Shown here in pieces: positions 35,615-60,576 of a stretch of 64,000 nucleotides of DNA. The notes under the pieces are model-generated. The model saw only the letters and a list, made by a program, of their open reading frames with translations. It was not told the origin of the DNA and made no database searches. The number at the start of each line of letters is the position of its first letter. Position 1 is the first letter of the stretch. Position numbers and translations under genes: made by a program. The stretch comes from Candidatus Anstonellales archaeon (GTDB taxonomy: Archaea > Micrarchaeota > Micrarchaeia > Anstonellales > CG1-02-47-40), in contig JAWCQO010000001.1 in NCBI GenBank assembly GCA_038869735.1, forward strand, positions 72,684 through 136,683, in the 5' to 3' direction.

Positions 35615-35629
35615 CTAATCCCTCCGTCT

Positions 35630-36550
35630 CTATATGTATGTAAGCGGTCCTTTTGGTCCGGCTATCATTATGATGGAAGCAGCCAGAAAAAGAGATGCAG
35701 AAAAGTAGAAGAAGTCAGAAAGCCCTGAGTTATGATGCTCCTTCTTTGCAGCACCCACTTCTCGATACATCATATAACTTAAACCAAATATTACAATAAC
35801 ACATAGTGAGAAGAAGATATAAAGAAATGGCAGAAGGTTATCAGAGAAGAGCATAATTGAGGTCATTGCACCCATTGGTCCTGACATCATTCCCGCCATT
35901 ATTCCCTCCATCGCCCCCATAACTCCACAAAAACGCCCTAAATTGACGCCTAACCCTATCCCTATAGTCATCCCAACTAGTGAACCTATAAACATACCGT
36001 TTGTTGCACCTACGAGAAGGCCGAACATTGAACCGCAAACCATACCCATTGTCATTCCTATCATCATACCATTTGTGCAGGACAAACCTTTGCGATAGCA
36101 TGACATATGGTAATAAGCGAATGCAGTAGAGATTGATGCGAAGATAGCAAGCAGAAGAAAAGGGAGATAGGCTGAATCGAACATCCCTCCAAAGTATCCC
36201 AAAGCACCTAAAAAGATAAGTGTTAGTAATGAAACGAGAGCATTAATAAGGAGTCTGCGTTCGACTTCTAAAGAAGCATCCCTACCATCAACAAGACGCA
36301 TGCAATAATCTTTTACAAACGCCCAGTTGCCGCGAGTCACAAAAGATTCTTTATTAGTCTCAATAAAGCCTTTTAGCGCAAGAGCTTCTTTCAATGATGA
36401 AAAGTCATTTTCGCTTGAGTAGAAAACAACTATGCCGGAGTCGTAATCTATGCTCTTTAGTTCTGCATTATGGTCCCGTGCAATTTTCTCTAAAAGTTTC
36501 TCGCAACTGCTGCACGAAAGGCCGGTTAAATGCAAAGTTAAATCAGGCAT
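35630..36550 (-). CDS. HMA domain fused to a Met/Gly-rich multi-pass membrane domain
   Basis: Residues 1-75 form a heavy-metal-associated domain with GLSCSSCEKLL (C13, C16). After a linker come about six to seven membrane helices. Those in the middle are packed with Met and Gly (GMMIGMTMGMVCGSMFG; GVMGAMEGIMAGMMSG). Methionine-rich helices can bind or pass Cu(I). I do not recognise the membrane family. It is placed between a CopZ-like gene and copA, so it is probably part of copper transport or membrane copper sensing. Confidence 0.75.
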   Translation of the reverse strand: MPDLTLHLTGLSCSSCEKLLEKIARDHNAELKSIDYDSGIVVFYSSENDFSSLKEALALKGFIETNKESFVTRGNWAFVKDYCMRLVDGRDASLEVERRLLINALVSLLTLIFLGALGYFGGMFDSAYLPFLLLAIFASISTAFAYYHMSCYRKGLSCTNGMMIGMTMGMVCGSMFGLLVGATNGMFIGSLVGMTIGIGLGVNLGRFCGVMGAMEGIMAGMMSGPMGAMTSIMLFSDNLLPFLYIFFSLCVIVIFGLSYMMYREVGAAKKEHHNSGLSDFFYFSASLFLAASIIMIAGPKGPLTYI

Positions 36551-36554
36551 AGGA

Positions 36555-36776
36555 TCACTTTTTGAGTAATGGAATTTTAGCTACAGTATAGCCTTCTTTT
36601 TCTATTGCGACTATTGCTGACTCAATAGCATCTTTACTTTTGGCATCAAATCTTATCTCACCTTTTTTGGAATCTACGCTGATGTTTGATATCCCTCCTA
36701 TTTCTGAGAGAGCGTCTTGAAGAAGAAGTTCGCAAGAGCGGCAGTGAAGCCCAACTACTTTCAAAACTTCAGTCAT
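36555..36776 (-). CDS. CopZ-like HMA copper chaperone
   Basis: The 73-residue product (from the ATG at 36776) is a single HMA domain: VLKVVGLHCRSCELLLQDAL with C-x2-C, and a typical beta-alpha-beta-beta-alpha-beta pattern. It likely carries Cu(I) to copA or its membrane neighbour. The longer frame starts at 36803, but the ATG at 36776 overlaps the stop of the upstream gene by 4 bp (ATGA). Confidence 0.85.
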   Translation of the reverse strand: MTEVLKVVGLHCRSCELLLQDALSEIGGISNISVDSKKGEIRFDAKSKDAIESAIVAIEKEGYTVAKIPLLKK

Positions 36777-37252
36777 TTTTTCATCACCTCGCAGTTGCTG
36801 CATTGCCTTTTTAGGAGAAAGTGGATGGAGAGCGCAAGAAAGACTATGCTAATTAATCCTAAGGATAGGTTAAAACCAGAGATAAACGCTGCGGCAGAAC
36901 CCAGGCCTGCCCACATTAGAAGGGGGGGATAACAGAAAGGGCATGATGTTGTAAAGAATGCTAAAGTGCTACCAATAACAGACAGTTTTAGTGGAAGAGT
37001 ATGTTTCTCTTTGTTAGAGTGGTTGTAGAAGAGGAGAGTAGCATTAAGAGAAATGAGAAGAGAAATGCAAAATATTATGAGCAATAGCAATGGGTCTGTA
37101 AAGGGATTTATCTGCAGTGGTAAAGGAACTATAAAGTTGGAAGTTATTGAGAGTATAATAAAAAATATGAGAAAGAGGAGACTAAACAAGAGAGTATATT
37201 CTCTTTTTGATAGTATGTTCCGTAGGTATAGGATAGAATGTGATGCGCTCAT
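36773..37252 (-). CDS. Small membrane protein with Cys motifs in copper cluster
   Basis: This 159-residue protein has about four membrane helices. A C-x2-C site lies at a helix edge (TTSCPFCYPPLLMW) and another at the C-terminus (KRQCSNCEVMKK). It could be a membrane copper carrier or a thiol redox protein. The family was not recognised. It overlaps both neighbours by 4 bp, so it is translated with the cupredoxin and CopZ-like genes. Confidence 0.7.
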   Translation of the reverse strand: MSASHSILYLRNILSKREYTLLFSLLFLIFFIILSITSNFIVPLPLQINPFTDPLLLLIIFCISLLISLNATLLFYNHSNKEKHTLPLKLSVIGSTLAFFTTSCPFCYPPLLMWAGLGSAAAFISGFNLSLGLISIVFLALSIHFLLKRQCSNCEVMKK

Positions 37253-37968
37253 ACGACCACTAGTTTGCCTCCCCTAAACATTCTCATGCCGCAATTGTAC
37301 TCGAAGGTACCTTCTCTGTTTGGAATAAAATCGACTATCTGTTCCTCACCGCTTTTTGAAATTGCACGGACGTTTAAACCATATATGACGAGCTGTCTTC
37401 CACAACCTGCATTCTTATCGGCTGAGAAATGCAGCCTGACCGGTACTCCCTTTTTTACTTCTATTCTGTCTTTGTCATATCTCCCTGTCGAAAGCGCCCT
37501 AATATAGATATCCTGTACTTCTTTATTACCGGATGTTCCAGTAACATAAGAGGAGGGAGAGGTGTTTGATGAGGGAGAGCGGATAGTGTTTAGAGTTGTA
37601 AGGGATGCATCAAGAGGACATGCTCCAACATTCCCACTTTCGCATGATGGTTGCGACGAAGATGACAGGATACCGGCAACAAGATAAATCAGAAGAAGGA
37701 TTGCAAGGGACGAAGCTAGTATAAAGGGGAAGGTATTCATTTGTGCATTTATTTGAGCGGTTTTTGCCATTTGATTATTTAGTTGAGTAGTTGCTTTGTT
37801 TTCTGAGGCTTTTTCATTTCTTGTCTCTTGATCGCAGCCACAACCAAAAGAGCTCCTGGGAATCTCGTTTGGTTCTTCTTGTGGTGTATTGCTTTGGTTT
37901 ACAATGGGTTCAATATGGACCACCTCTATGTTAAATTTATTAAATTTAATTGCTGTTAGATGTATCAT
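37249..37968 (-). CDS. Membrane-anchored cupredoxin-like protein
   Basis: The 239-residue protein has a polar N-terminal part with CGCDQE, one membrane helix (about 80-103), then an external domain. The last 90 residues look like a cupredoxin: VEVKKGVPVRLHFSADKNAGCGRQLVIYGLNVR, GTFEYNCGMRMFRGGKLVV, with Cys and Met in copper-ligand-like positions. It may bind copper outside the membrane. It is the first gene of the leftward copper operon, with a TATA about 22-26 bp upstream. The divergent regulator starts 65 bp away. Confidence 0.82.
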   Translation of the reverse strand: MIHLTAIKFNKFNIEVVHIEPIVNQSNTPQEEPNEIPRSSFGCGCDQETRNEKASENKATTQLNNQMAKTAQINAQMNTFPFILASSLAILLLIYLVAGILSSSSQPSCESGNVGACPLDASLTTLNTIRSPSSNTSPSSYVTGTSGNKEVQDIYIRALSTGRYDKDRIEVKKGVPVRLHFSADKNAGCGRQLVIYGLNVRAISKSGEEQIVDFIPNREGTFEYNCGMRMFRGGKLVVV

Positions 37969-37974
37969 TTGACT

Positions 37975-38004
37975 GAAACAATATAAATTAGATAATGAAA
38001 CAAT
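37975..38004 (-). promoter_or_regulatory. Operator-like direct repeat and TATA box of copper operon
   Basis: TGAAACAAT occurs at 37974-37982 and 37996-38004, starts 22 bp apart (two helical turns), on either side of the minus-strand TATA TAATTTATAT. This is a plausible binding site for the divergently encoded winged-helix regulator. Confidence 0.55.
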
Positions 38005-38014
38005 GTTTTTAATG
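38005..38014 (+). promoter_or_regulatory. TATA box for winged-helix regulator
   Basis: GTTTTTAATG is centred about 25 bp before the ATG at 38034. This again suggests a leaderless transcript. Confidence 0.5.
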
Positions 38015-38033
38015 TAGGTTGTAGTGTGAAAAT

Positions 38034-38504
38034 ATGGAAAACATAAATAAAGTAATAGCTGGGATTTTAGTTACGGCATTCTTTATTTTTCTTATTACGG
38101 CGCTTTCCTTTGTTTATGTAGCATCAATCGAAGGTGCGGAGATACCAAGTCTTTTTCAGCCGTTTCTCCAGTATCATGTTGAGTTCATGATAATTATGGG
38201 GCTTGTGGGTTTCGTTGCTGGGATTGTTATTTATAATAATCTTATATCGACCATTCAGAGGCAAAAAAAGACAAATGTTGGGATAGTGATGAAGTTCCTT
38301 GAAGACAAAGAAAGGGAGATTTTGGAGCTGCTCTTAAAGAGAGACGGGATGACAACACAGAGTGAAATTTCAAGACTCCCTGGAATGAACAGATTAAAGG
38401 CTCACCGCATCGTAAAGAAACTTGAAAAAAGAGGAATAATATACATAGAAAAAAACGGAAAAGTGAATATGGTTCGCCTTATAGACGAACTGAAAGAAAA
38501 ATGA
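38034..38504 (+). CDS. Membrane-anchored winged-helix transcription regulator
   Basis: The 156-residue protein has two N-terminal membrane helices (about 8-30 and 50-72) with a short external loop. A cytoplasmic winged helix-turn-helix follows (about 90-150: LEDKEREILELLLKRDGMTTQSEISRLPGMNRLKAHRIVKKLEKRGII, a MarR/DUF-type wHTH). It is divergent from the copper operon, 65 bp away, so it probably senses copper or envelope state and controls that operon. No obvious metal-ligand cluster is present in the loop, so sensing of copper itself is unproven. Confidence 0.78.
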   Translation: MENINKVIAGILVTAFFIFLITALSFVYVASIEGAEIPSLFQPFLQYHVEFMIIMGLVGFVAGIVIYNNLISTIQRQKKTNVGIVMKFLEDKEREILELLLKRDGMTTQSEISRLPGMNRLKAHRIVKKLEKRGIIYIEKNGKVNMVRLIDELKEK

Positions 38505-38514
38505 AAAGAAAAAG

Positions 38515-38760
38515 TTATCCTATGACTTCTCCAATTGCAAAGCTGGAACGAAGCTCCTTTATCTTTATCTTCACATTGTCGCCTTCCTTCGTATTCGGCA
38601 CAAAGATTACAAAGCCGTCTTTCTTTGCTATTCCGTCTCCTTTTGCTGCTTTGGCCTCTATAGTGACATCAAGCTCATCGTTTACCTTGACGGGTTTGGG
38701 GCCAAAATCTCGTATGCCTCGCCTACCAAATCTACTATCTTCTCCCTCTGAACCTTTCAT
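38515..38760 (-). CDS. TRAM-domain RNA-binding protein
   Basis: The 81-residue protein is basic at the start and carries a TRAM domain: VKVNDELDVTIEAKAAKGDGIAKKDGFVIFVPNTKEGDNVKIKIKEL. Single TRAM proteins are common RNA chaperone-like proteins in archaea. The ATG at 38760 has GGAGGT seven bases upstream; a GTG at 38766 is the alternative. The rightward reading frame across this region is an artefact of the opposite strand. Confidence 0.9.
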   Translation of the reverse strand: MKGSEGEDSRFGRRGIRDFGPKPVKVNDELDVTIEAKAAKGDGIAKKDGFVIFVPNTKEGDNVKIKIKELRSSFAIGEVIG

Positions 38761-38839
38761 CCTCACTACCTCCTTTGTCAGATTTTGCGTTGGTTGGTTA
38801 TGGAAGAGGTTATTTAAAAATGATGGTATGAATAAAACT

Positions 38840-41137
38840 ATGAAAGGGAGAAGCTTCGGGTGGATTAGTTCATTTTTAGTTTTTATTTTTTTAGTCTGTT
38901 TTTCTTTTGGCTATGAGCCAACTTCCTTTTCTTTTGTCGTGGGAGGAGTAGTAAATGTAAATTCAACATTTTTTTTAGATATTGTCGCAAATAACAGCAA
39001 CTATGTAGGAGGTTGTTCTGATAGAGTGAACGCCAACAGTAGCCGTGTCCTTGTCAATTCAAGTGGAAATTTTATTGCGCTTTCGGATTATAACATTTCA
39101 GAACGCTATAATGCTAGCGGAATTAGCGGGACTGCCCGCCTACAGATTAAGATTTCTGCATTGGGTATTTACAATATAAGCTTGAATACGACAGGATGTG
39201 AAAACGTCTCACCATATACCAGCACAACCATCTCTCTCTATGGAGGCAGATTTTTTGGCTATGTTTGGAATGGGAGTATAGGAAATCCATTTTTGGGAGC
39301 GGAAGTAAAATTATCTGGAAACTATGGAAATGAAACTGCATTTACGGATTCAGATGGATATTACCAGTTTTTTGATGTAGTACCCTCTAATGGATATATG
39401 ATATCAGCAAATGCAAGCGGGTATGAATCAAACCAGAGCTGGAATCTTACTCTAGTTGAAAACGAAAGCAAGAGCATAAATTTTACACTAAAAAGAATTA
39501 GTGGAGAAGATGTGACAAATGGTTCTCTTTTTGGTTTTGTACTAAATTCAAGCAGCGGTTATGGAATAGGCGGTGCAAATCTCAAAATGGATAACTCGAC
39601 TCTAAACATAACACTAAAAACCAATACTTCACAGAATGGAAGCTACTCCTTTTTCAATATGATGCCTGGATTATATCTGCTTTCGGTCACTGCTACAGAA
39701 TTTGAGGGCCACTCTAGAATTGTGTTAATTGTAGGGGGTTATAATTATCTCAATATAACACTCAACGAAAGCAAAGGTGGAAGAATTTTTGGTTATGTAA
39801 GAAATGTAAGCAACAATGCAAGTGTTCCAGATGCACTAATAAGGATATCAAAAAACAGATATTTAGTAACTAAAAATACAGGTAGCAACGGGTATTATTA
39901 TTTTGATAATCTTACTGCCGGCAACTACACCTTGCTTGTAAATGCTACAAAGTTTATATCACGCACGTTATACTTTGAATTAAAAAATTCTTCAAGCGCT
40001 GTAGAGCTTAACATTTCATTATTTACAATTAGTCTTTCAAACTTATCAAACGGAGTTTCATGTGAAAATGATGATCAGTGTGCAAGCGGAAATTGTTGCA
40101 ATAGAGTATGTACTGCTCTGGATTGCAATGTAAGCGCAGGGGGAACTTGTAGAGAAAGTGTTGAGTGCGAAGCTGGGCTTTCCTGCTGTTACGGAACCTG
40201 CCAATTGCCTCCGTGTATTCAGCTCAATGTTCCTGAAGGAGGTGCATGTAACAAAACTTATCAGTGCATAAGAGGACTTGTGTGTTGTGGGGGCTTTTGC
40301 AAAAGCGGCGAGTGCGTAGAGGACGTTGAAGTTGAGGTTGAAAAAACAGAAGTAATAGTGCTTGGGTTCGAAAGAATAGGTGTCAAGAGAAAAGTAATCT
40401 CAAATAAGAGCATGCAAAGAAGTGAAGTCTCTCTTAATATTATAAATATAGAAGAAGAAGCGATTTATAATGTAGAGCTTTGGGAGACCGTCCCGTCAAA
40501 TGTTGCTGGAGTGGGTATTAGTGAAATAGAGCCAAAGGAGCATTACATACTTAATGGAAGCGGCGGAAGCAAGATCATTATATGGAGATTTTCTGTCCTT
40601 GAGCCTCAAAAAGAGATAAGTATACGATACAAAATAAACAAATTTGTTGATGATGCAAGCGGCTTTTCTTCTTTTGGGAAGAGATATGAAACAGTGACTC
40701 CTGAAAAGATTAAGATTGCAAGGCTAATTGCGCCAGCAAGGATAAATGTGGGAAAACAAGTTACACTCGCACTGAAGGACATTGATGGTACGCCTATCCC
40801 TAATGTTGGGATTATAATTTCTGCACCAAACGGACAGAATATGATACTCATCTCAAATGACGATGGAATGGTGAAATATGTAGCGAGCATAGAAGGCGAG
40901 TATACGTATTCGGTTGAAGGATGGCAACTTATAGAATCTGTAAGAAAAACGATGTCTGTAAAGGAATACGTTGAACATATAAATATAAGTTCAGGGATAA
41001 AGGTTGGTCAGATACAGCTAAACGCAAGCGAGATTTTTTCGTTTGGACTCGCTGGATTAGTGTTAGTTTTTATAGCTGCAGGTATTGTTCTTGTTTTGAT
41101 TATTCTGTTTTATTATATTTATTTGAAAAAAAAGTGA
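38840..41137 (+). CDS. Large surface protein with repeated carboxypeptidase-regulatory-like domains
   Basis: About 765 residues. A signal helix is followed by an N-terminal domain, then three repeats of a beta-sandwich type (FFGYVWNG, LFGFVLNSS, IFGYVRNVS starts, each ending near a GxY/F turn). A Cys-rich block with about 18 cysteines (CENDDQCASGNCC, GGTCRESVECEAGLSCC, GGACNKTYQCIRGLVCC) follows, then a long beta domain and one C-terminal membrane helix. Many N-x-S/T sequons suggest N-glycosylation. The frame is open far upstream, but TATA spacing to ATG 38840 (or ATG 38828) sets the start. Its end overlaps a convergent ATPase by 38 bp. Confidence 0.78.
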   Translation: MKGRSFGWISSFLVFIFLVCFSFGYEPTSFSFVVGGVVNVNSTFFLDIVANNSNYVGGCSDRVNANSSRVLVNSSGNFIALSDYNISERYNASGISGTARLQIKISALGIYNISLNTTGCENVSPYTSTTISLYGGRFFGYVWNGSIGNPFLGAEVKLSGNYGNETAFTDSDGYYQFFDVVPSNGYMISANASGYESNQSWNLTLVENESKSINFTLKRISGEDVTNGSLFGFVLNSSSGYGIGGANLKMDNSTLNITLKTNTSQNGSYSFFNMMPGLYLLSVTATEFEGHSRIVLIVGGYNYLNITLNESKGGRIFGYVRNVSNNASVPDALIRISKNRYLVTKNTGSNGYYYFDNLTAGNYTLLVNATKFISRTLYFELKNSSSAVELNISLFTISLSNLSNGVSCENDDQCASGNCCNRVCTALDCNVSAGGTCRESVECEAGLSCCYGTCQLPPCIQLNVPEGGACNKTYQCIRGLVCCGGFCKSGECVEDVEVEVEKTEVIVLGFERIGVKRKVISNKSMQRSEVSLNIINIEEEAIYNVELWETVPSNVAGVGISEIEPKEHYILNGSGGSKIIIWRFSVLEPQKEISIRYKINKFVDDASGFSSFGKRYETVTPEKIKIARLIAPARINVGKQVTLALKDIDGTPIPNVGIIISAPNGQNMILISNDDGMVKYVASIEGEYTYSVEGWQLIESVRKTMSVKEYVEHINISSGIKVGQIQLNASEIFSFGLAGLVLVFIAAGIVLVLIILFYYIYLKKK

Positions 41138-43673
41138 AGAATACTTTTTTTCCTATTTCATTTGTAACAAAATAAACAAGAACCAAAAAAAGTATAATTA
41201 AAAGAAGCGTAGGGTTTGGAGGGGAAAACCTGAAAATTTCGGCTGTTATTGGCGTATAGATGAAAGCAAACGTAAGAATTATTGCAAAAAGCGAAGTGAT
41301 GATCAATGAAAGGGAAGGTTGGCTTTTCCAGGCAGGGAGTGTTGTGCGGAGGGAGAAGATTATCGTTATCTCTGTGAGAATGGAGAGTAAGAACCAAGAC
41401 GTTCTGAACTGTGATACTGGGGTATTAAGGAAAAGCAACATGAGAAGAATTAAGAGAACATCAAAAAATGAGCTAATGAGCCCAAAAAAGAGCATAAAGC
41501 GAAAAATCAATGAGTTATCCCATCTTTGAGGTTTTTTAGTGTATGATGAATCAACATTGTCTGTAGATATTGCAAACATTGGAACGTCGGATATGAGATT
41601 TGTAAGAAGTATTTGTGAAGGGAGTAAAGGGATGAAAGGAAGAATGACTGACGAAAGGCTAACGGTCAGCATATTTCCAAGATTTGCGCTAACCGTATAA
41701 CGGACATATTTGAAAATGTTTCCAAAGATTTTTCTTCCCTCTTCAACGCCTTCTGAGATTATATCCAAACTTTTTTGTAGGAGGATTATATGAGATGCCC
41801 CCTTTGCTACGTCTGCTGCGGTATCAACGGATATACCAACATCAGCTGCCCGGAGAGCAGGAGCGTCATTTATTCCGTCGCCCAAAAAACCAACAACATG
41901 TCCGTTGGAGCGCAAAGCCTCAACAATTTTTAGTTTCTGATCAGGGGTAACGCGTGCAAAAACGTCATATTTTTCCACAGCCTCCAAGAGTTCTTTTTCG
42001 CTCATCTCTGAAATTTCGCTTCCAAGGATTATTCTGTTGTCTTTTAGTGGAAGACCAATGTCATTGCATAGTTTTCTCGTGACATTTGGGTCGTCACCTG
42101 TGAGAATCTTCACTTGGATGTTGAGTTGATTTAAGCGTTTTATCGCATGTGAAGCAGTCGCTTTTGGGGGATTTGAAAAAAGAACAAAGCCTATGAATAT
42201 GAGGTTCTTTTCGTCGTGAAGGGAATAATCGGATTTGGACTCTATCTCGCTATATGCAACTCCTATTGTACTTAACCCATCTTTTGTATATTGAGAGATT
42301 GCGTTCAATACCTCCTCTTTTTTCTTCTCAACTGGGAGGACAGTTGACTTCATCTTGATTCTTGAACAGACGTCTAAGACGGATTCCGGCGCTCCTTTTG
42401 TTATTATATATTTCTTTGCTCCCTCTTTGACTATCACCGACATTCTTTTTCTTTTGAAATCAAAAGGAATCTCATAGAGCTTTTCAAATCTGGATATATC
42501 TGCACCGGCCTTTTTTCCTTCCTTTTTTATTGCAATATCTATTGGGTTTCCACGAATTCTTGTTGAACCAACCGCTGAGTTACAGAGAAGAGCGTATTCA
42601 AAGACATCATGATTGTCTTGCATATCAAGGTCAACATACTTGAAGAAGCGAAGTCCCTCTTCAGTAAGAGTCCCTGTTTTATCAGTACAAAGAACATCCA
42701 TGTTTCCTAAATCTTCTATTGCTGCCAGCTTTTTTGTAACAACCTTATTTTTTGCAAGTTTTAGGCTACCTACTGAAAGCGCTATAGTAATTATTGCTGG
42801 AAGCGCTTCTGGAGTTATGCCAACAGCTAAGGCAAGCGCAAAGAGGGCTGAGTCAAGAAGAGGATTTTTCTCTCCATGACCTGCCAAATAGTTTGTAATA
42901 AATACAAAAAGAGTGATTGCAGCCATTAACTTCATAAGCATAAATCCAAACTTTCTTACACTAATCTGAAAATCGGATTCGGGCACACGCGAAGAAAAGA
43001 CTGCAGTAGTCTTCCCAAAAAACGTATTATTACCAGTGAATACAACTACGCCTATGGCATAGCCTTCAAGGATCGTTGTTCCCATAAAGAGTCCATTTGA
43101 TATTTCTTGAGGAGTGTTTGATGATGGGGGGGAGGGACGGACGTTTTTTTCAACCGGTCTTGATTCTCCAGTTAAGATACTTTGGTCTACAATAATGCCT
43201 GACCTTGACTCCAAAATACGCAAGTCAGCTGGGACTATGTCTCCAAGACCGACAGAGACGACATCGCCAGGGACAAGCTCGGAGGAGGATATTTGGAACT
43301 TCTTACCTCCTCTTATTACGGTAGCTTTATAGCTGTAATATTTTTTGAGTTCGGACAAAACCTTTTCTGCTTTGTATTCTTGAAAGAAGCCAAAAACGAC
43401 GCTTGCAAGGATAAGTAAAAAAATCACAAGAGAATCAAGTAGGTCTCCAAGGAAGATAGATATGAGGCACCCAAAAAGAAGTATTAGAATGGGGGGAGTC
43501 TTTAGTTGAGATAGCAGGATTTCTTGGCTGTTGCGTCTATCTTTGTCAGGAATTATGTTTGGTCCGTATTTTTCCAGTCTATTTTTTGCTTCTTTTTCGG
43601 AAAGACCGTATGGGGAGCTTGCAAGCTCAGCTAATAGAGCATTCGCCTCTAAAGACCATATGGTTGAGTTCAC
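41100..43673 (-). CDS. P-type cation ATPase (Mg/Ca type)
   Basis: The 857-residue pump has an N-terminal cation ATPase domain (AELASSPYGLSEKEAKNRLEKYGPN), TGES motif in DQSILTGESRPVE, phosphorylation site MDVLCTDKTGTLTEEG, and hinge GDGINDAPALRAADVGISV. It lacks HMA or CPC motifs, so it is not a copper pump. The sequence around DKTGT resembles Mg2+-importing MgtA/P3 ATPases, though Ca2+ transport is possible. About ten membrane helices are expected. The ATG at 43673 is used. Confidence 0.88.
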   Translation of the reverse strand: MNSTIWSLEANALLAELASSPYGLSEKEAKNRLEKYGPNIIPDKDRRNSQEILLSQLKTPPILILLFGCLISIFLGDLLDSLVIFLLILASVVFGFFQEYKAEKVLSELKKYYSYKATVIRGGKKFQISSSELVPGDVVSVGLGDIVPADLRILESRSGIIVDQSILTGESRPVEKNVRPSPPSSNTPQEISNGLFMGTTILEGYAIGVVVFTGNNTFFGKTTAVFSSRVPESDFQISVRKFGFMLMKLMAAITLFVFITNYLAGHGEKNPLLDSALFALALAVGITPEALPAIITIALSVGSLKLAKNKVVTKKLAAIEDLGNMDVLCTDKTGTLTEEGLRFFKYVDLDMQDNHDVFEYALLCNSAVGSTRIRGNPIDIAIKKEGKKAGADISRFEKLYEIPFDFKRKRMSVIVKEGAKKYIITKGAPESVLDVCSRIKMKSTVLPVEKKKEEVLNAISQYTKDGLSTIGVAYSEIESKSDYSLHDEKNLIFIGFVLFSNPPKATASHAIKRLNQLNIQVKILTGDDPNVTRKLCNDIGLPLKDNRIILGSEISEMSEKELLEAVEKYDVFARVTPDQKLKIVEALRSNGHVVGFLGDGINDAPALRAADVGISVDTAADVAKGASHIILLQKSLDIISEGVEEGRKIFGNIFKYVRYTVSANLGNMLTVSLSSVILPFIPLLPSQILLTNLISDVPMFAISTDNVDSSYTKKPQRWDNSLIFRFMLFFGLISSFFDVLLILLMLLFLNTPVSQFRTSWFLLSILTEITIIFSLRTTLPAWKSQPSLSLIITSLFAIILTFAFIYTPITAEIFRFSPPNPTLLLIILFLVLVYFVTNEIGKKVFFTFFSNKYNKTE

Positions 43674-43763: not shown

Positions 43764-43878
43764 GCTGAGGTCGCATAGCCTGGTTAGTGCGCTGGATTGC
43801 TAATCCAGTGTCGAAAGACGCGCAGGTTCAAAGCAAAAAAATGTATCAAGCTTCGTGGGGAAAATCCTGCCCTCAGCG
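43764..43878 (+). tRNA. tRNA-Ser(GCT) with T-loop insert
   Basis: Acceptor GCTGAGG pairs with CCTCAGC, discriminator G. The anticodon stem CTGGA/TCCAG holds TT-GCT-AA (GCT at 43799-43801) with no intron. A long variable arm follows (GTGTCGAAAGACGC). The T-stem GCAGG (43822-43826) and CCTGC (43866-43870) are separated by TTCAAA, a 32-nt insert (about 43833-43864) and T60. The last bases before the T-stem are GAAAAT, in which GAA can pair with TTC of the T-loop. Removing the insert restores a standard class II tRNA. Confidence 0.92.
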
Positions 43879-43946
43879 TTTTTTATTGTTTTTATAGTTT
43901 CTACTTTCTTCGGAAATTAGGAGAGTATTGAGAAGGATTAGAGAAT

Positions 43947-44212
43947 GGGAGGGTCCGGTATTGCCGAACGCACAAGTAGGGGTTGTTTGGGCCCGTGCTC
44001 CGCCTTGGCTCCTCCAAGCACAAATACAAAAATCTTAGGGCTGCTCCTTCCGGCCTGACCCGGTTCGATTTTTGCTTCGCCCTGCAGGTCAAGACATCTA
44101 CGCACTAGAGCCCAAGCCGCCTGACTTGGGCGAAAGCGACGCAACCGGATTTTCGGTCCTGCCTTGAGGGGACATGCAGTTACAAGGGACCCCTAGCCCC
44201 CCGACCTATCCC
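43947..44212 (-). ncRNA. Signal recognition particle RNA (archaeal 7S type)
   Basis: On the minus strand the conserved SRP helix 8 is clear: GGTCAGGCCGGAAGGAGCAG followed by CCCTAAG. The 5' GGGATAGGTCGG and the 3' CCGGACCCTCCC can pair with small bulges as helix 1, which sets the approximate ends. The stretch GCCCAAGTCAGGCGGCTTGGGC fits helix 5/6-type pairing. Length of about 266 nt fits archaeal SRP RNA. The ends are estimates. The gene is antiparallel to ftsZ and tRNA-Ser. Confidence 0.88.
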
Positions 44213-44342
44213 ATAAATTTAGGGATTATTTCATTTATAAGATTTCGTTATTATGGCTTTTTCAAATAAACAAAAACAGGATTACCCAAAAAGTTATATA
44301 TAAGAGGTGATTAAGGATGTTTAGGCGTTGATAGGAAGGGTG

Positions 44343-54331: not shown

Positions 54332-56884
54332 TTAGATAATTATTGAATCTATAAATGATGGCAACTGCTCAAGAGATATTAGAAAGAGTCTCTTTGAAGC
54401 AACTTCAAGTTTGATTCTTACTGCAAGTGGAGTTGTAGAGGTGAGTCGCTTAGAAAACTCTTCAAGCACTATTGAATTTTCAAAAAGGAGGATTGTTGGG
54501 TATTCGGAAATGGAGCATAGTGCGCGATAAGCAGATGAATCATCCTCAAAGAAGCAGATAGCGTATTCTCTTCCAGATATAGAAAATTTTACGTCTGCCT
54601 CTTCATTGCTTGTTGGTCTTGAAAATTTGATTGCTTTGGTTATAAGTACATCTCTAACGTGTCTGAATAGAGATAGATTCTTGAGGCTTCTTTTTGCTTC
54701 GGTTTCCCATCTTTTCAGACACCAGAAGCCTAGTACTTCTTTTACCTCGCCAGTACGGTTTTGGATTTGGAGCAAAATGCGCTCAAGATTGTAATCACCA
54801 ATGATTATTGGACTGCCGTTATGCTTCAACTTCCTAAACCCGCTTTTGAGGTCTTCAAGTGAAAGTGGCATGTATCGCCATTGGTACGTTTTATTTACGG
54901 TATCAAAGAGCTCCAGTACTTGATCTTTCTTTATTGGAATCTTTATTTGTGATATTGGTGGAAATTCAGGTATATCTATAACAAGAAGCTGTTTTTCTGG
55001 CTTGCGGAGATAGGTGCCTATTGCAAAAAACAGAATAGTCAGCATTCCCATGAAGATGATTAGTGGATTTTCATAAAACTGCTTTTGAAGTATATACTCG
55101 ATTTGAATAGATTTTTTAAAGCCGCCGTCGAACTCGAAGGTGAAGTTATGGGTACCGGGTGGAAGATTCGGAACATAATAGAGAAGAACGGTTGATGGTT
55201 GGATTTCTTTCTCAAATTTGCCATCCACCGAGACTTTTAGGCGCTGGAATGGTATTTTCTCCTCTTTGGATGATGTAAAGGAAAATGAGAAATTCCCGTT
55301 TTTAAAGTCTTGATTGGCTACATAGACAGAAAAGTCTTCTACCTCTACCTGCGCCTGAGCGTAAACTCGGTTCGTAGAATCAACTACCCGGAGTATGTAA
55401 ATTCCAGAAGGAAGAGAGGAGTCATAATCAAATGGAAGCGGTGATTGGAGATTGGTTAATCCTTCTTGTACTTGCTCAGATTTTATTACTTGTCCATCTT
55501 TTATTGTCTGAAGGAATAGCTTTCTTTGACCTCCCCCGGATTCTTTAAAATCGAGTATTAAACGAATCTTTTGCCCAGTCAGATAGGTTGGCAAGAATGA
55601 GCTTCCTCCTTTTACATAGATGTTTGAATTTTGCTTCTTGCTTAATGCTAAATCAACTCGTCGGCTTATCTTTTGTCCGTCTGGCGATTCGCCTTCAAAG
55701 CGTATTATTGAGAAGATTTCTGATGGCAGAAGAGGGGGGGAGTAGATATAAACGGTATCAGAGGTTGAATTCTCGACCATAAGTTGCACTTCTGTTTTTG
55801 CCAAAACATTCTGCCATGCATAATTGGAGATTAGTCGAGAAATGTCCTCAGCTGCGGTTTCGCCGTTTCTTCGCCATCCTCCATCGAGTGTTTGGGGTAG
55901 GAAGACGAAATAACTCGAGTTTAAGGCGAGTGCTGATATTGACCCATAAATTTTGGTTTTTGCGATCTGAGACGCGATTCGGGGTGCGACGCTGTATTGT
56001 GGGTCGAACAATCGAAAGTCCTCGTCAGATGGTGTCGGACGTTCAAATATAAATGGCAGGGAGGAAAGCAGTTCCTTTGACGATACGATTGGAATGCCCT
56101 CATCATTAAGAATGCGGTCAAATGGAAGGCCTATATAAATAATTATTATCCCTTTTGAAAGGAGATCCTGATAAAAAAAACTGCTTTCAAATAATTTAGT
56201 GGGAAAATAACCAGTTGGTATTATTAGAACTGAGCGAGGCGGAAGTGACTTAAGTTGCGCATATGTAACATCATTGACGGATATTTCGTTGAGAGTTAAT
56301 AGCTCTTCTAGCTTTGACCTAAAGGTCTGGTAAGTTTCTGCTTGATGGCTCTTTGTTTGAAGAATAAAAACTTGTCTTGGAAGGGGATTTGGGAAAAATG
56401 TTGCAAGAATTTTTGCTGATGAAAGGTCCTTTTGATTATAGGAAATCTCGAAATAGGCTGTGTGAAATTGAGGGGTCTCGCCCCAATCAAGAATCTGAAA
56501 GTCTTTGACTTCGACATCAACCCAGGGAGTATACGGCGCTTTTTGTGGTGGCGGTGGCTGGTTTTGTGAAAATGAAAAGTAGAAAGCCGCCAAAAGAAGA
56601 AAAAAAGCAAATGCAGCTATGGGCAAAAGAATGGTTTTGATGGTGGGTGAAGTTTTAGGAGCTTCTTCTGCTTTTTTTTCATCTGCCTTTTGCGCAACCG
56701 GAACTTTTTTTTGGGGAGTGGAAAGAAAAGACGAAACGCGTTCAATCAGATTTTTTGATAATGGTGGCTTCTTCTGAACAAATCTCTTTACATTCTCATA
56801 TTTCTTTCTTATTGTAAAGATATATGCCTTTTTTGAAATGCGAAATTTGAGCGTTTCTTCATCCACCATAGGACCAGATCCCAT
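54332..56884 (-). CDS. Large membrane protein of the VirB4-like cluster
   Basis: I do not recognise this 850-residue protein. It has a basic N-terminus with a proline/lysine-rich linker, a membrane helix at about 83-107, a long external region with beta-rich domains (about 108-605), a second helix at about 606-626 (NPLIIFMGMLTILFFAIG) and a cytoplasmic domain of about 220 residues. It is the last gene of the cluster that contains the VirB4-type ATPase. Its topology suits an envelope-spanning subunit. A second in-frame ATG lies five codons in. Confidence 0.6.
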   Translation of the reverse strand: MGSGPMVDEETLKFRISKKAYIFTIRKKYENVKRFVQKKPPLSKNLIERVSSFLSTPQKKVPVAQKADEKKAEEAPKTSPTIKTILLPIAAFAFFLLLAAFYFSFSQNQPPPPQKAPYTPWVDVEVKDFQILDWGETPQFHTAYFEISYNQKDLSSAKILATFFPNPLPRQVFILQTKSHQAETYQTFRSKLEELLTLNEISVNDVTYAQLKSLPPRSVLIIPTGYFPTKLFESSFFYQDLLSKGIIIIYIGLPFDRILNDEGIPIVSSKELLSSLPFIFERPTPSDEDFRLFDPQYSVAPRIASQIAKTKIYGSISALALNSSYFVFLPQTLDGGWRRNGETAAEDISRLISNYAWQNVLAKTEVQLMVENSTSDTVYIYSPPLLPSEIFSIIRFEGESPDGQKISRRVDLALSKKQNSNIYVKGGSSFLPTYLTGQKIRLILDFKESGGGQRKLFLQTIKDGQVIKSEQVQEGLTNLQSPLPFDYDSSLPSGIYILRVVDSTNRVYAQAQVEVEDFSVYVANQDFKNGNFSFSFTSSKEEKIPFQRLKVSVDGKFEKEIQPSTVLLYYVPNLPPGTHNFTFEFDGGFKKSIQIEYILQKQFYENPLIIFMGMLTILFFAIGTYLRKPEKQLLVIDIPEFPPISQIKIPIKKDQVLELFDTVNKTYQWRYMPLSLEDLKSGFRKLKHNGSPIIIGDYNLERILLQIQNRTGEVKEVLGFWCLKRWETEAKRSLKNLSLFRHVRDVLITKAIKFSRPTSNEEADVKFSISGREYAICFFEDDSSAYRALCSISEYPTILLFENSIVLEEFSKRLTSTTPLAVRIKLEVASKRLFLISLEQLPSFIDSIII

Positions 56885-56910
56885 CAGCCCAAGTTTAAAA
56901 TTAAATCAAC

Positions 56911-57648
56911 TCATTCCTTGATTGCGAGGTAGCCTTCCAATACAAGCCTGTTTAACACTGCCTCTACCCGACTTTCTGGAACGCCGTAAGTTTTTGAAAA
57001 TTCAGTTATGTTTATCTCTGAGTTGTGTTCGTGAATCCAATTTTGTATTTTTGATGCAAGAACTTCGTCAGAAATGGACTGGAACTCTGCAAGCTTATTT
57101 GCAAGCTCATCTTTTGACACTTTTAGTTCATAGTTTTCCCGCGAAAGGAGAGTATTTGCCTCCTGTAGGTCTCGAACTCTCTTTTGAAGAGAAATAACCT
57201 CTGATTTTAGGCTGTCGTAGAGAGAGTAGAGTTTATCGTAATCGCTAGTAACGTATTCCTCCATTTCAGATAGAGCATTTTCCAGCATTTGGTATATCTT
57301 TCGATTGTCAATGCTATAGTTGGATCCCAACAGCGTAAGAAGATTGAGGAGATACTTTAACATATCAAGTTTTCTTTTTTTTGGACTCATTCCGGCTGTA
57401 TAGGTGTAGAGAAGCTCTATTTTGTCTGGATGGAAGTAGGTTAGTGAAAACAAGAATGGGTTTTTGTGGATATCTCTACTCTCGACGTTTATTCCAATGA
57501 TGGTTTCGTTTTCTTCTACCAACTTTAAAAACGAAAGTTGAGAAAGTGATTCAAAAACGTCTTTTTTGCTGCCTACCCTTGAAGCCTCTAAGAATATTCC
57601 GCTAACCTTTGGCGGAGTCGTTGCTTTTTGCTGTTTTTGTGGAGGCAG
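56911..57648 (-). CDS. Coiled-coil protein with C-terminal helix-turn-helix; start unusual
   Basis: The frame has a coiled coil (about residues 125-175 of the longer form) and a C-terminal winged-helix-like end (NITEFSKTYGVPESRVEAVLNRLVLEGYLA). The first standard start is TTG at 57522, giving 203 residues. The same frame is open and protein-like upstream (IFLEASRVGSKKDVFESL) back to the upstream stop, with GGTGA six bases before a CTG at 57648, giving 245 residues. No ATG or GTG occurs in between. I list the longer form; the start is uncertain. Confidence 0.5.
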   Translation of the reverse strand: MPPQKQQKATTPPKVSGIFLEASRVGSKKDVFESLSQLSFLKLVEENETIIGINVESRDIHKNPFLFSLTYFHPDKIELLYTYTAGMSPKKRKLDMLKYLLNLLTLLGSNYSIDNRKIYQMLENALSEMEEYVTSDYDKLYSLYDSLKSEVISLQKRVRDLQEANTLLSRENYELKVSKDELANKLAEFQSISDEVLASKIQNWIHEHNSEINITEFSKTYGVPESRVEAVLNRLVLEGYLAIKE

Positions 57649-57654
57649 ATGATA

Positions 57655-58119
57655 TCACCTTTTTTTCTTTTTGATTTTTTTTGATTTAGATTTAGTGGCA
57701 AGAATGGCTTGTTTAGACGTCTTTTTCTCTAAAGAAGGCTGCTCAGACAGAGACGGCGGTGGTTGAGGAGTCTCTTCAATTGCAGGAACGTATGAGGTAA
57801 GAGAAAACAGCACAAGAAAAGCTCCGATGAAGATAGATATAATAAAAGTTCCGAGGGACAGTGTCCCGCTAAGAAGAGAGAGACCAACAAAGGCAATGAA
57901 GATGATGACTGCAAGGGCAATGTACTGAACCAGTGTCTTTTCAAATTTAGTCCTTCTTTTCTTATATTCTTCATACATCTCTTCGCTCACAATAAGTCTG
58001 TTATTTTTTGCGATTCCAAAAAAACGCTTTATTTTTCTTATTGAGCGTATCACTATGTCTTCCTTGACTGGATAGCCAACGCCTTCATTTCCTGACATTA
58101 TGCAAATCCCTCTTTCCAT
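57655..58119 (-). CDS. Small membrane protein of the VirB4-like cluster
   Basis: The 154-residue protein has a basic cytoplasmic N-terminus, one or two membrane helices (YIALAVIIFIAFVGLSLL and LGTFIISIFIGAFLVLFSL), then a proline-rich and lysine-rich tail ending KSKKIKKKKR. ATG 58119 follows GAGGTG; an internal ATG at 58098 is possible. It could be a scaffold or coupling protein. The family was not recognised. Confidence 0.6.
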   Translation of the reverse strand: MERGICIMSGNEGVGYPVKEDIVIRSIRKIKRFFGIAKNNRLIVSEEMYEEYKKRRTKFEKTLVQYIALAVIIFIAFVGLSLLSGTLSLGTFIISIFIGAFLVLFSLTSYVPAIEETPQPPPSLSEQPSLEKKTSKQAILATKSKSKKIKKKKR

Positions 58120-58146
58120 ATCTCAAAACACCTCTTTTATGTGTGT

Positions 58147-59721
58147 CTACTCCTCCAATATAACTTGGGTTATATCTCGTCCAGTCATCCCAAGTTTTTT
58201 GAAATCTGTTTTGGAGAATATATTTATTATAGTTAAGTCGTCGATTCCCATATCTTTGAGAAGGGAAGTTATATTATTTCTTCCAAGGCCGTAGCGTTCA
58301 AGAAGGATAACAAATGAGATCACATCAAGATGGTTGTTTTTCTTTGAAAATAAAGAGACTATTTCTTCTATATGAACTGTGTCGAGGCCAAAAGACAGCA
58401 ACTTCTTTTTTAATTCTCCTCTCTCAAATGAGACTACTTTAGCCATAAGCTCATCCCTCCGTTCCTCCTCTGAAAGAGCAGAAGAGAGATCCAAGAAAAG
58501 CTCTTGCAGAGGTTCTTCACCGTCAACGCGCTCCATTATAAATGTCTCTGAAAACTGCATTGTTGTCTGAAAAGCCATATTTACTGCGCAGGACCCAAGC
58601 CCCAGCTTTGCAATCTCATCTCTCATAAAATCCGAAAAATTGAGAGTGTTTTGCAGATAGTTCAAAAAGCGCTCAAATTTCACTCTAAAAATAAATGTGG
58701 TCCCAACGTTTGAGAAGATTGCTTCTGAGATATCTGTAGGATTTTGTGAAGCAACAATAAGCCCAAACTGGTATTTTCTTCCTTCCCGGACAATCATAAC
58801 TGCATCTGAATTATCGTCCTTTGCAATTTTCCATGCTTCATCAAGCACAACCAAAAGACGCAGGCCAGCCGTTGAGCTCCAACCTGACTCACGCATCTTT
58901 TCCTTTATGAACTGGAGCATAGATAGAGCAGCTAAGCCTCTGAAGACTTCATCAGGGAGTCCAGATAGGTCCAAATCTACAAGACCAGCATTTAAAAGTT
59001 GCTCTAAGTTAACGGTTGATTGTTGTGCAAAATAATCTTCGCCTTCGCGAGTAAACTGCTTTATTCGATAGATTGCATTTTCAAGTTCTGCCGGAAATTC
59101 GTATGTTCCTGCTGCAAGCTGATCTTCAAGGATGTGTTGTACATCCCGCAATGTTGGCGGTTGAAGTGGGCGACCTGCACGGTCACGCTGGACTTTTCTA
59201 TCAAGCTTAAATCCAGCCTCAACATAAGCTTTTTCTATGGCATTTTCGGTAAGTCTTTTTTGTTCAGGGTAATGACTTATGTCTGTGAGTATCTCCAACG
59301 TTCGGATAATCTGTTTTATCCTATCATTTGGTTTCATTCCGCCCAAATCAAGGAGATTTATATAAGAGCCCTTGCCAAGTGAAATTACAATGCCGCCTGT
59401 TTGTTTTACCCACTCCTTGTATTCTCCTGCCCAGTCAATTATAAACGCATTGGTTCCCCAGACAAAGCTGGCTCGAGTTAGAAAAGTTTTTACAAAATAG
59501 CTTTTTCCAGAGCCGGTTATTCCAACCACACAGATATGTGGATTAGTGATTCGCTGGAATGTCCAATAAAAAGGAACGTGAAAAATCTTTGTTCTTCCTA
59601 TATAAATGGAATTTGTGGGGTCTGCCATGAGGTAATCCTCTGGCGGCTCTGGCGGCCTGACAAAAAAATTGCGCCTAGCTACATCGCGATTAAAGACGTG
59701 AGATAGTTTTAGCCTTCCCAT
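58147..59721 (-). CDS. VirB4/HerA-like ATPase
   Basis: This 524-residue ATPase has a short N-terminal strand region, Walker A GITGSGKSYF, a long ATPase domain, the Walker B strand LRLLVVLDEAWKIA, and the sensor-like VASQNPTDISEAIFSNVGTTFIFRV. These are the VirB4/TraC/HerA features; the preceding N-terminal domain of VirB4 is not part of it. The C-terminal 100 residues look helical and species-specific. The ATG at 59721 follows a GGTGGT element; a GTG at 59730 is the alternative. It begins 11 bp after the membrane partner gene. Confidence 0.85.
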   Translation of the reverse strand: MGRLKLSHVFNRDVARRNFFVRPPEPPEDYLMADPTNSIYIGRTKIFHVPFYWTFQRITNPHICVVGITGSGKSYFVKTFLTRASFVWGTNAFIIDWAGEYKEWVKQTGGIVISLGKGSYINLLDLGGMKPNDRIKQIIRTLEILTDISHYPEQKRLTENAIEKAYVEAGFKLDRKVQRDRAGRPLQPPTLRDVQHILEDQLAAGTYEFPAELENAIYRIKQFTREGEDYFAQQSTVNLEQLLNAGLVDLDLSGLPDEVFRGLAALSMLQFIKEKMRESGWSSTAGLRLLVVLDEAWKIAKDDNSDAVMIVREGRKYQFGLIVASQNPTDISEAIFSNVGTTFIFRVKFERFLNYLQNTLNFSDFMRDEIAKLGLGSCAVNMAFQTTMQFSETFIMERVDGEEPLQELFLDLSSALSEEERRDELMAKVVSFERGELKKKLLSFGLDTVHIEEIVSLFSKKNNHLDVISFVILLERYGLGRNNITSLLKDMGIDDLTIINIFSKTDFKKLGMTGRDITQVILEE

Positions 59722-59731
59722 TTTTACCACC

Positions 59732-60541
59732 TTATGAGAGGCGAGCCTCGAGCTCCTTTTCGTTGGGAGGTATCATGTACTCCCAATCAAAACATGTTTT
59801 CATTTCCTCTCCGGTTAGAACGATTACATCAACGTTTAGTGCGTTTGACACCGTAGCTCTTATTTCGTTTGCCTGAGATTTTACTGCAGCAAGTGCCGCT
59901 TCCTTTGAGACACCGGTTGCTGTTGTCATTACATAAGCTACGCACCCCATTGGCTTAATACCGCGTGTGAGTTTTGCTATTTGGTTTTCCCACATCGCAA
60001 CTTCGCGCTCGTAGCGGTCTATTTTGAGGATGTCAGGCTCAGGTTTGTCGCGTTCTCTGGAGAGTCTAAGCTGAGCCTCTGCATATTTCGTCTCCATTTT
60101 TTCGCGGAATTCGTTTAAATCTTTTAGATAGATAAGAAGGCAGAATTTGGTAACAAACCGCACTGAGGATATTGCCCGCTCAAAATATTCTGAGTAAATT
60201 ATGTTTTCTTCAGGTGTTTTGTCTGTTGTTGACTCGTAGATCCTGACTCCCAAGAACATGGATGCATAGTAAGTTGAGCCGACTTTTTTTAAGATAGCAT
60301 CCTGCTCTGGTGGGATTTCATAGCCTGTATCAGTTATCTGTACTATCCTTGCACCACTAGTCAAGAAAGGGAATAGAACGTAGCCATACTTGTAGAAAGC
60401 TATTGCACCTACCGCACCTAGACCGGCAAATATGCCTCCTATGAGGGAAAGAGGCCCTCCGCCTCCTGTGAATGCGCCTATAACTCCAAGCAATCCTATT
60501 AAAGCAGAACCGTATCCCATCTGCTTTGTATCAACTATCAT
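59732..60541 (-). CDS. Membrane partner with VirB3/PrgI-like hairpin and VirB4-N-like domain
   Basis: The 269-residue protein has two close membrane helices near its start (LIGLLGVIGAFTGGGG; FAGLGAVGAIAFYKYGYVLF). A cytoplasmic domain follows, with a charged helical hairpin (about 150-195) and the stretch VKSQANEIRATVSNALNVDVIVLTGEEM. That order, a small membrane hairpin followed by a VirB4 N-terminal-like domain, suggests a VirB3-VirB4N fusion whose ATPase half is the next gene. This is a visual judgement. ATG 60541 follows AAGGGGAT. Confidence 0.6.
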   Translation of the reverse strand: MIVDTKQMGYGSALIGLLGVIGAFTGGGGPLSLIGGIFAGLGAVGAIAFYKYGYVLFPFLTSGARIVQITDTGYEIPPEQDAILKKVGSTYYASMFLGVRIYESTTDKTPEENIIYSEYFERAISSVRFVTKFCLLIYLKDLNEFREKMETKYAEAQLRLSRERDKPEPDILKIDRYEREVAMWENQIAKLTRGIKPMGCVAYVMTTATGVSKEAALAAVKSQANEIRATVSNALNVDVIVLTGEEMKTCFDWEYMIPPNEKELEARLS

Positions 60542-60576
60542 ACTGATCCCCTTCAAAACTTACAAAGAGGCTATTT

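Follow-up and report, generated by a model that had tools for sequence, protein, structure and literature searches.

The ABCDE locus in Micrarchaeota

The DNA analysed here (the window, 64,000 nucleotides) derives from a Candidatus Anstonellales archaeon, a tiny organism of the symbiosis type, and contains five open reading frames, termed A to E, which are all encoded on the minus strand (Table 1). They correspond to the five-gene module proposed in a preceding sequence-only reading and were found where that reading had placed them or a few codons off.

Table 1. Genes of the ABCDE locus and alternative start codons, in window coordinates.
Feature	Position	Strand	Product
Gene A	59732..60541	-	269 aa; two membrane helices at the N-terminus, followed by a separate domain with a VirB4-N-like predicted fold
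Gene A, alternative start	TTG at 60556	-	
Gene B	58147..59721	-	524 aa; VirB4/HerA-type motor without VirB4 N-terminal domain
Gene B, alternative start	GTG at 59730	-	
Gene C	57655..58119	-	154 aa; N-terminal CxxC...CxxC zinc-finger-like domain and two TM helices
Gene D	56911..57648	-	~245 aa from CTG at 57648; beta domain, coiled coil, winged HTH
Gene E	54332..56884	-	850 aa; two TM helices around an ectodomain, conserved cytoplasmic alpha/beta domain

The small membrane protein C has two transmembrane segments and has lost most of its zinc-finger-like cysteines in the window's lineage. Protein D had been described as a coiled-coil, HTH-like protein; the coiled coil and a C-terminal winged HTH were found, but the frame had been called too short. 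Judged by homologues and by the reading frame, translation starts at the CTG, and the frame beginning with TTG at 57522 is a truncated call. The large envelope protein E was recovered with a cytoplasmic tail, a first TM helix near residues 81-106, a Rossmann-like and Ig-like ectodomain, a second TM helix near 607-626 and the cytoplasmic domain at 650-850. A fold search with E returned generic Ig/macroglobulin domains, which do not indicate a function.

Gene A was detected in 88 of 96 high-quality Micrarchaeota genomes, its family in 255 of 301 Micrarchaeota, and gene B in all 59 genomes of the window's order. The order A-B-C-D-E is kept in 33/33 inspected relatives and in 66 of 80 named loci, phylum-wide and thus far beyond the source genome. 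Conservation of B and of the gene order far exceeds chance. Among the sampled genomes the ABCDE locus is nearly universal in Micrarchaeota and almost confined to this phylum, and it is a fixed chromosomal locus, unlike sporadic element-like loci. A description of such a system in Micrarchaeota was not found in the literature consulted, and the papers on Mia14 and Ca. Micrarchaeum harzensis do not mention VirB genes.

A bare motor and a separate membrane protein

The ATPase B had been described as carrying VirB4/HerA motifs and starting almost at the motor. Both the Walker A motif (GITGSGKS, residues 67-74) and the Walker B motif (DEAWK, residues 294-298) are intact, their key residues are invariant among 13 diverse homologues, and only about 35 residues precede the motor region. 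B matches Pfam AAA_10 (2e-13), DUF87 (6e-12) and the TraG P-loop, all above the Pfam cut-offs, and aligns with full-length VirB4 in hhalign (prob 99.85); an extra helical domain follows at the C-terminus (~420-524). These comparisons identify B as a motor of the VirB4/HerA type that has no VirB4 N-terminal domain, and B provides the VirB4-type ATPase motor characteristic of the type IV secretion superfamily. Its best NCBIfam matches are CedD and CedB (2e-20). Since it reaches 73 bits against cut-offs of 700 and 600, B is not an orthologue of CedB or CedD.

The motor also matches HerA in PADLOC and PDB profiles, and together with the winged HTH in D this could point to a HerA-type helicase for DNA repair or anti-phage defence whose membrane neighbours are coincidental. 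We consider this very unlikely and rejected it: the HerA matches are limited to the motor, with the short leader of B leaving no HerA N-terminal barrel, a NurA or SIR2 partner is absent from the locus, and the co-operonic neighbours encode membrane proteins conserved throughout the phylum.

Protein A had been tentatively interpreted as a VirB3/PrgI-VirB4N protein separated from its motor. Two N-terminal hydrophobic helices were confirmed, and the AF2 model (pLDDT 88.8) was compared to the PDB with Foldseek, where ranks 1-9 were all VirB4 chains of plasmid R388 (probability 0.97-1.00, with E-values of only 6e-3 to 5e-2). Sequence profiles gave a different result. The match of A to the PrgI-VirB4N profile (prob 21%, score 31.8) is not significant against the controls, as a reversed control reached 27.1 and the C family, which is unrelated, 34.4; sequence-profile proof of A as PrgI/VirB3-VirB4N was therefore rejected, and a VirB3 identity of A is at most conjectural. 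The profile of A found no match in full-length VirB4, and in the PDB mostly coiled-coil chains were matched. In the model, A is a membrane protein of its own with two helices and a predicted fold like that of VirB4-N. The split-VirB4 idea for A and B is supported only through this predicted structure; the profile link of A to VirB3/PrgI-VirB4N is not significant. Both points on which the sequence-only reading hinged came out in its favour, namely a resemblance of A to VirB4-N, seen in the predicted structure, and a gene order conserved beyond a single genome.

Pilins and VirB6-like arrays

In the rest of the window, neither VirB2-like or VirB6-like genes nor a second VirB4 were found; a weak match to a VirB6 profile turned out to be a winged-HTH protein. 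The statement that no pilin is present is true of the window, but pilins are encoded elsewhere in the genome, as are two six-gene VirB6-like arrays, unlinked to ABCDE. The arrays are likewise unlinked in the window's order. In other Micrarchaeota, the A-E genes belong to a single operon, in which they are preceded by VirB2-like pilins and a tandem series of VirB6/CedA-like membrane proteins, exactly six in number, so that in these relatives both a VirB6-like channel protein and a VirB2-like pilin are linked to the motor. Ca. Fermentimicrarchaeum (L237) has the contiguous order pilin-pilin-6x VirB6-like-A-A-B-b-C-D-E, L239 and L240 are similar, and the array ends less than 400 bp from A in 29 named loci. 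A second locus with the order V2-V6-A'-B'-D' was found as well, and this paralogous locus contains a counterpart of D. VirD4, VirB8, VirB11 or a relaxase were not noticed in the window or in the operons seen. The stronger support for a type IV secretion reading comes from outside the window, from these homologous loci that are contiguous with pilins and VirB6-like proteins.

The VirB6 and VirB2 assignments are made by profile similarity to other archaeal type IV secretion systems (T4SS). The arrays match VirB6 of PrgI-VirB4 elements in hhalign (prob 88.8, E 2.5e-6, score 51; controls 12-17, at most 20.7 in 100 shuffles), and the secondary pilins (V2b) match the pilins of the elements (prob 92, score 41; shuffles at most 19). 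V2 and V2b pilin profiles match each other with prob 98, V6 matches an array-only alignment with prob 99.9, and one array member matches NCBIfam CedE at 2.5e-4. Pfam searches with V6-like and array proteins matched no family. When the pilin profile was compared to the PDB, almost only amyloid-beta was matched, which we took as a composition artefact.

Array-family matches were found in 12/12 A-carrying and 0/10 A-lacking Micrarchaeota tested. Throughout the phylum, each of the six array proteins is the orthologue of those at the same position (9 label changes on a tree of 114 leaves, compared to 74 by shuffling), and the proteins of array 2 carry large Cys-rich ectodomains. Linked pilins and large ectodomain proteins, together with the participation of the R388 IMC with VirB4 in pilus biogenesis (PMC9259494), would also fit a machine that assembles a pilus or surface structure without transporting macromolecules. 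This is rather improbable, as six distinct pore-type subunits seem too many for pilus extrusion alone.

A candidate transfer machine related to type IV secretion systems

With a probability of about 80%, ABCDE encodes the ATPase part of a machine that resides on the chromosome and descends from type IV secretion systems. We read it as a domesticated T4SS relative, akin to bacterial conjugation systems, that would carry DNA or protein across the envelope, probably during cell contact.

The Ced and Ted systems of Sulfolobales and Thermoproteales are likewise chromosomal, relaxase-free and T4SS-derived (PMC9905601, PMC11868833). They combine a VirB4/HerA-like motor with VirB6-like (CedA) and VirB2-like (CedA1/TedC) parts, and the VirB4 N-terminal domain is already divided between CedB and CedD (PMC11868833). 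Together with CedD and CedB being the best named relatives of B, this makes Ced-like import, by which DNA from neighbouring cells or the host would be drawn in to serve repair, recombination or nucleotide supply, a tentative option. In Micrarchaeota, however, the putative N-terminal domain stands alone as a membrane protein that has no motor, the locus adds the conserved C, D and E, and B lies far under the CedB/CedD cut-offs. Each array has six VirB6-like genes instead of one or two, a set for which Ced has no counterpart, and a linked nuclease or recombinase is lacking.

PrgI-VirB4 T4SS of archaeal mobile elements, which also occur in Micrarchaeota (L176-L184), share the VirB2-like pilin, the VirB6-like protein and possibly a 2-TM VirB3-like region ahead of VirB4; in L176, L179 and L180 the PrgI-VirB4N gene is even separate from the VirB4 gene. 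In contrast to the ABCDE locus, the VirB4 of these elements keeps at least 760 residues, there is usually a single VirB6, and the loci are sporadic and element-like.

Tandem, divergent, extended VirB6 paralogs beside VirB3-VirB4 are known from the Rickettsiales rvh T4SS (PMC2653234), but this system belongs to double-membrane bacteria, includes VirB8-VirB11 and VirD4, has five paralogs instead of six, and its VirB4 is intact. Patescibacteria, epibionts with reduced genomes, are described in the excerpts of the literature consulted as keeping a reduced T4SS with VirB4, VirB3/PrgI, VirB6 and VirB2-like parts; it belongs to a bacterial MPF-FATA-related clade with unsplit VirB4, and these excerpts do not report a six-gene VirB6 array. 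Their T4SS is reportedly essential for epibiotic growth (PMC12102498). Contact-dependent secretion of proteins, with the host or a partner cell as recipient, has been proposed for these epibionts. In Micrarchaeota it would fit the ectodomains of array 2 and the retention of the machine in ~500 kb genomes such as G032, and the tandem VirB6 paralogs of Rickettsiales offer a parallel. It appears unlikely, though not strongly so, since a coupling protein or effector was not identified and the arrays are missing in ten Micrarchaeota genomes tested. We slightly favour DNA uptake or exchange of the Ced type over the export of proteins to a partner.

For the domesticated T4SS relative, we propose that A would hold a hexamer of B at the membrane, in the role that VirB3 and VirB4-N have in R388, below a putative mixed-subunit pore of six VirB6-like proteins. 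VirB2-like pilins may form a short filament or a conduit. C, D and E may be system-specific scaffold or regulatory parts, with E spanning the envelope and D joining the motor from the cytosol. On contact with a second cell, B would hydrolyse ATP to power the transfer of macromolecules or the assembly of a pilus. A more speculative extension is that the six VirB6-like subunits form an obligate mixed ring, with positions fixed before the sampled lineages diverged, which is matched to the hexameric split VirB4 motor throughout the phylum, and that cells of the window's order have two such pores.

The apparent split of VirB4, with its N-terminal part in a membrane-anchored protein and its motor left bare, is relevant to the coupling of VirB4 rings to the channel, and so is the ordered series of six VirB6 paralogs. 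For the exchange of molecules between DPANN archaea and their hosts, the locus offers a well-delimited candidate machine, kept throughout the phylum, whose parts can be listed. The operon is contiguous in lineages for which complete genomes exist, among them Ca. Micrarchaeum harzensis, which is grown in co-culture, and the candidate machine is therefore testable.

Conservation of the five-gene locus

The five co-directional minus-strand genes that the sequence-only reading described in the window (A to E, encoding 269, 524, 154, about 245 and 850 amino acids) were found as stated, except that D had been drawn too short: homologues carry about 40 additional N-terminal residues, which are encoded in frame in the window. 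Its start is a CTG close behind the stop codon of C, in the same frame as C and with a Shine-Dalgarno-like GGTGAT upstream. Homologues of C contain a CxxC...CxxC zinc-finger-like motif, of which three of the four cysteines are gone in the window lineage. Among named relatives of motor B, CedD and CedB ranked first (2e-20), VirB4/TraC second and HerA third, and profile comparison matched B to the motor part of full-length VirB4 at 99.85%. Only about 35 residues lie ahead of the motor, and an additional helical domain is present at the C-terminus.

Coordinates of the features discussed (G000 denotes the genome of the window)
Feature	Location	Strand	Description
A	window 59732-60541	-	two membrane helices and cytosolic domain
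B	window 58147-59721	-	P-loop motor; AAA_10, DUF87 and TraG-type above Pfam cut-offs
C	window 57655-58119	-	zinc-finger-like motif in homologues
D, N-terminal stretch	window 57523-57648	-	CTG start at 57648
Array 1	G000:C4:28175-34558 (L209 8143-14772)		VirB6/CedA-like six-gene tandem array
Array 2	G000:C5 (L196 4527-12657, L219 661-2700)		second VirB6/CedA-like six-gene tandem array
V2 and V6	G000:C2:102384-103630		adjacent genes
tRNA	window 43764-43878		115 bases
SRP RNA	window 43943-44216		adjoins tRNA
P-type ATPases	window 33332-43673		heavy-metal-type and cation-type
Repeat surface protein	L034 1-9816		3271 aa
E-like protein	L034 14752-16788		678 aa

B was present in all 59 Anstonellales genomes, and the 33 primary loci inspected in this order all hold the five genes, with E inverted in one (L060). 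The gene order is conserved well beyond it in the phylum, which named genome records (the nearest with 86% identity in B) identify as Micrarchaeota: among 80 named loci the order is complete in 66, interrupted at a contig end but otherwise consistent in 12, and deviating in two. Of the 301 genomes in the phylum, 255 carry the A family; among the 96 of high quality the count is 88. Two elaborations are found regularly: a tandem duplication of A, and a small separate gene, b, that corresponds to the C-terminal domain of B. Of about 94 genomes outside the phylum, one, G343, gave a clear match to A (5e-12); its B homologue (1e-70) is flanked by genes for a secreted protein of 1022 aa and a ParA-like protein. 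The neighbourhood of this B homologue (L173) resembles Ted-type loci.

Elsewhere in the window, the P-type ATPases flank a cupredoxin-like protein, and the tRNA next to the SRP RNA, found by Rfam and missed by ARAGORN, probably contains an intron. The repeat surface protein of locus L034 shares its contig with a second E-like protein, which is distant from any motor gene.

Gene A and the VirB4 N-terminal domain

The proposal that A and B represent a split VirB4 was assessed by structure prediction. AlphaFold2 with 69 homologues (pLDDT 88.8) predicted for A two membrane helices followed by a beta hairpin, helix, strand, long helical hairpin, strand, helix and strand. The best nine matches of this model among 350,542 PDB chains were all R388 VirB4 entries (probability 0.97-1.00, E 6e-3 to 5e-2), and the first match after them was unrelated (probability 0.13). 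Sequence profiles did not confirm the assignment: A scored 31.8 against PrgI-VirB4N of archaeal elements and shuffles reached at most 20.8, but the reversed control came near (27.1) and the unrelated C family scored above the real match (34.4). The split-VirB4 reading is thus favored by the predicted fold of A, the gene order and the domain missing from B, and not by the sequence profiles of A.

Archaea have been reported to be without VirB3 and VirB8 homologues, and the VirB4 N-terminal domain to be divided between CedB and CedD (PMC11868833), whereas in Micrarchaeota the VirB4-N-like domain would be a separate non-ATPase membrane protein, A. Several relatives encode mobile-element-type type IV secretion systems (T4SS) with pilin, VirB6 and PrgI-VirB4 (L176-L184); in L176, L179 and L180 separate genes encode PrgI-VirB4N and VirB4, which in L177, L178 and L184 are fused.

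VirB6-like arrays and pilins

Most Anstonellales genomes carry a paralogous A'-B'-D' locus. In relatives (L203, L207, L199; V2-V6-A'-B'(-D')) two genes precede A', the first for a VirB2-like pilin (V2, about 81 aa) and the second for a protein with six to seven transmembrane segments (V6, about 330 aa); L198 reads C'-V2-V6-A'-B'-b'-D'-E', with C' on the opposite strand. In the window genome V2 and V6 are adjacent on another contig. Divergent pilins (V2b) occur at least twice per genome in the genomes inspected, including those with the ABCDE locus only.

Searches with V6 detected related membrane proteins in tandem arrays, two per genome in the order; every array that was fully covered has exactly six members (array 1, n=9 genomes; array 2, n=7). 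In the window genome, the second array encodes large ectodomains rich in Cys, and an anchored protein of 1431 aa is encoded after it. V6 and the arrays form a single family (probability 99.9), as do V2 and V2b (98). Array proteins matched VirB6-type proteins of PrgI-VirB4 elements (probability 88.8, E 2.5e-6, score 51; reversed, shuffled and unrelated membrane families 12-21), V2b matched the element pilins (probability 92, score 41; controls <=20), and one array member matched the CedE model. Since a Pfam search of V6-like and array proteins matched no family, we regard the VirB6- and VirB2-like assignments as remote but controlled sequence similarities.

The six-gene array immediately precedes A in other Micrarchaeota. 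Ca. Fermentimicrarchaeum limneticum (L237) encodes pilin, pilin, six VirB6-like proteins, A, A, B, b, C, D and E on one strand within 16 kb; L239 and L240 show the same run save pilin differences, with C not called in L239. The array ends at most 400 bp from the first A in 29 named loci, including that of Ca. Micrarchaeum harzensis (L119), where a whole-genome search found six members beside the locus and a separate V6. All 12 A-carrying Micrarchaeota tested matched the array family, compared to none of ten A-lacking ones; G276 and G277 gave a single match each, which in G276 is the V6 adjoining A.

In a phylogeny of 114 array members drawn from 12 genomes, position labels (1-6) changed 9 times (minimum 5) versus 74 times when shuffled; genome labels were unclustered (98 vs 85). 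Within a genome, array 2 members matched the same array 1 position in 26 of 42 cases. These few position changes and same-position matches indicate that the six paralogs appear to be older than both the duplication of the array and the divergence of the sampled lineages. That six distinct subunits are kept in order speaks for six roles that are not interchangeable, and the simplest reading would be a mixed-subunit pore. In Rickettsia, five divergent VirB6 genes adjoin virB3-virB4 (PMC2653234), compared to six VirB6-like genes in the Micrarchaeota arrays.

A putative T4SS variant of Micrarchaeota

Most likely, A and B would jointly replace VirB3-VirB4, with B forming the ATPase ring, the VirB6-like set the membrane channel and the pilins the conduit, while E would connect cytoplasm and surface and C and D would be accessory. 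The literature covers Ced, Ted and Patescibacteria T4SS, and our search turned up no account of the Micrarchaeota machine, a putative variant of the T4SS. Parallels are the DNA-importing Ced/Ted systems (PMC9905601, PMC11868833) and the T4SS of Patescibacteria, reported to be essential for epibiotic growth (PMC12102498). Both DNA and protein as cargo, and both import and export as direction, would be compatible with the results. That genomes as reduced as about 500 kb (G032) have kept the machine suggests that it is important for life as a small cell.
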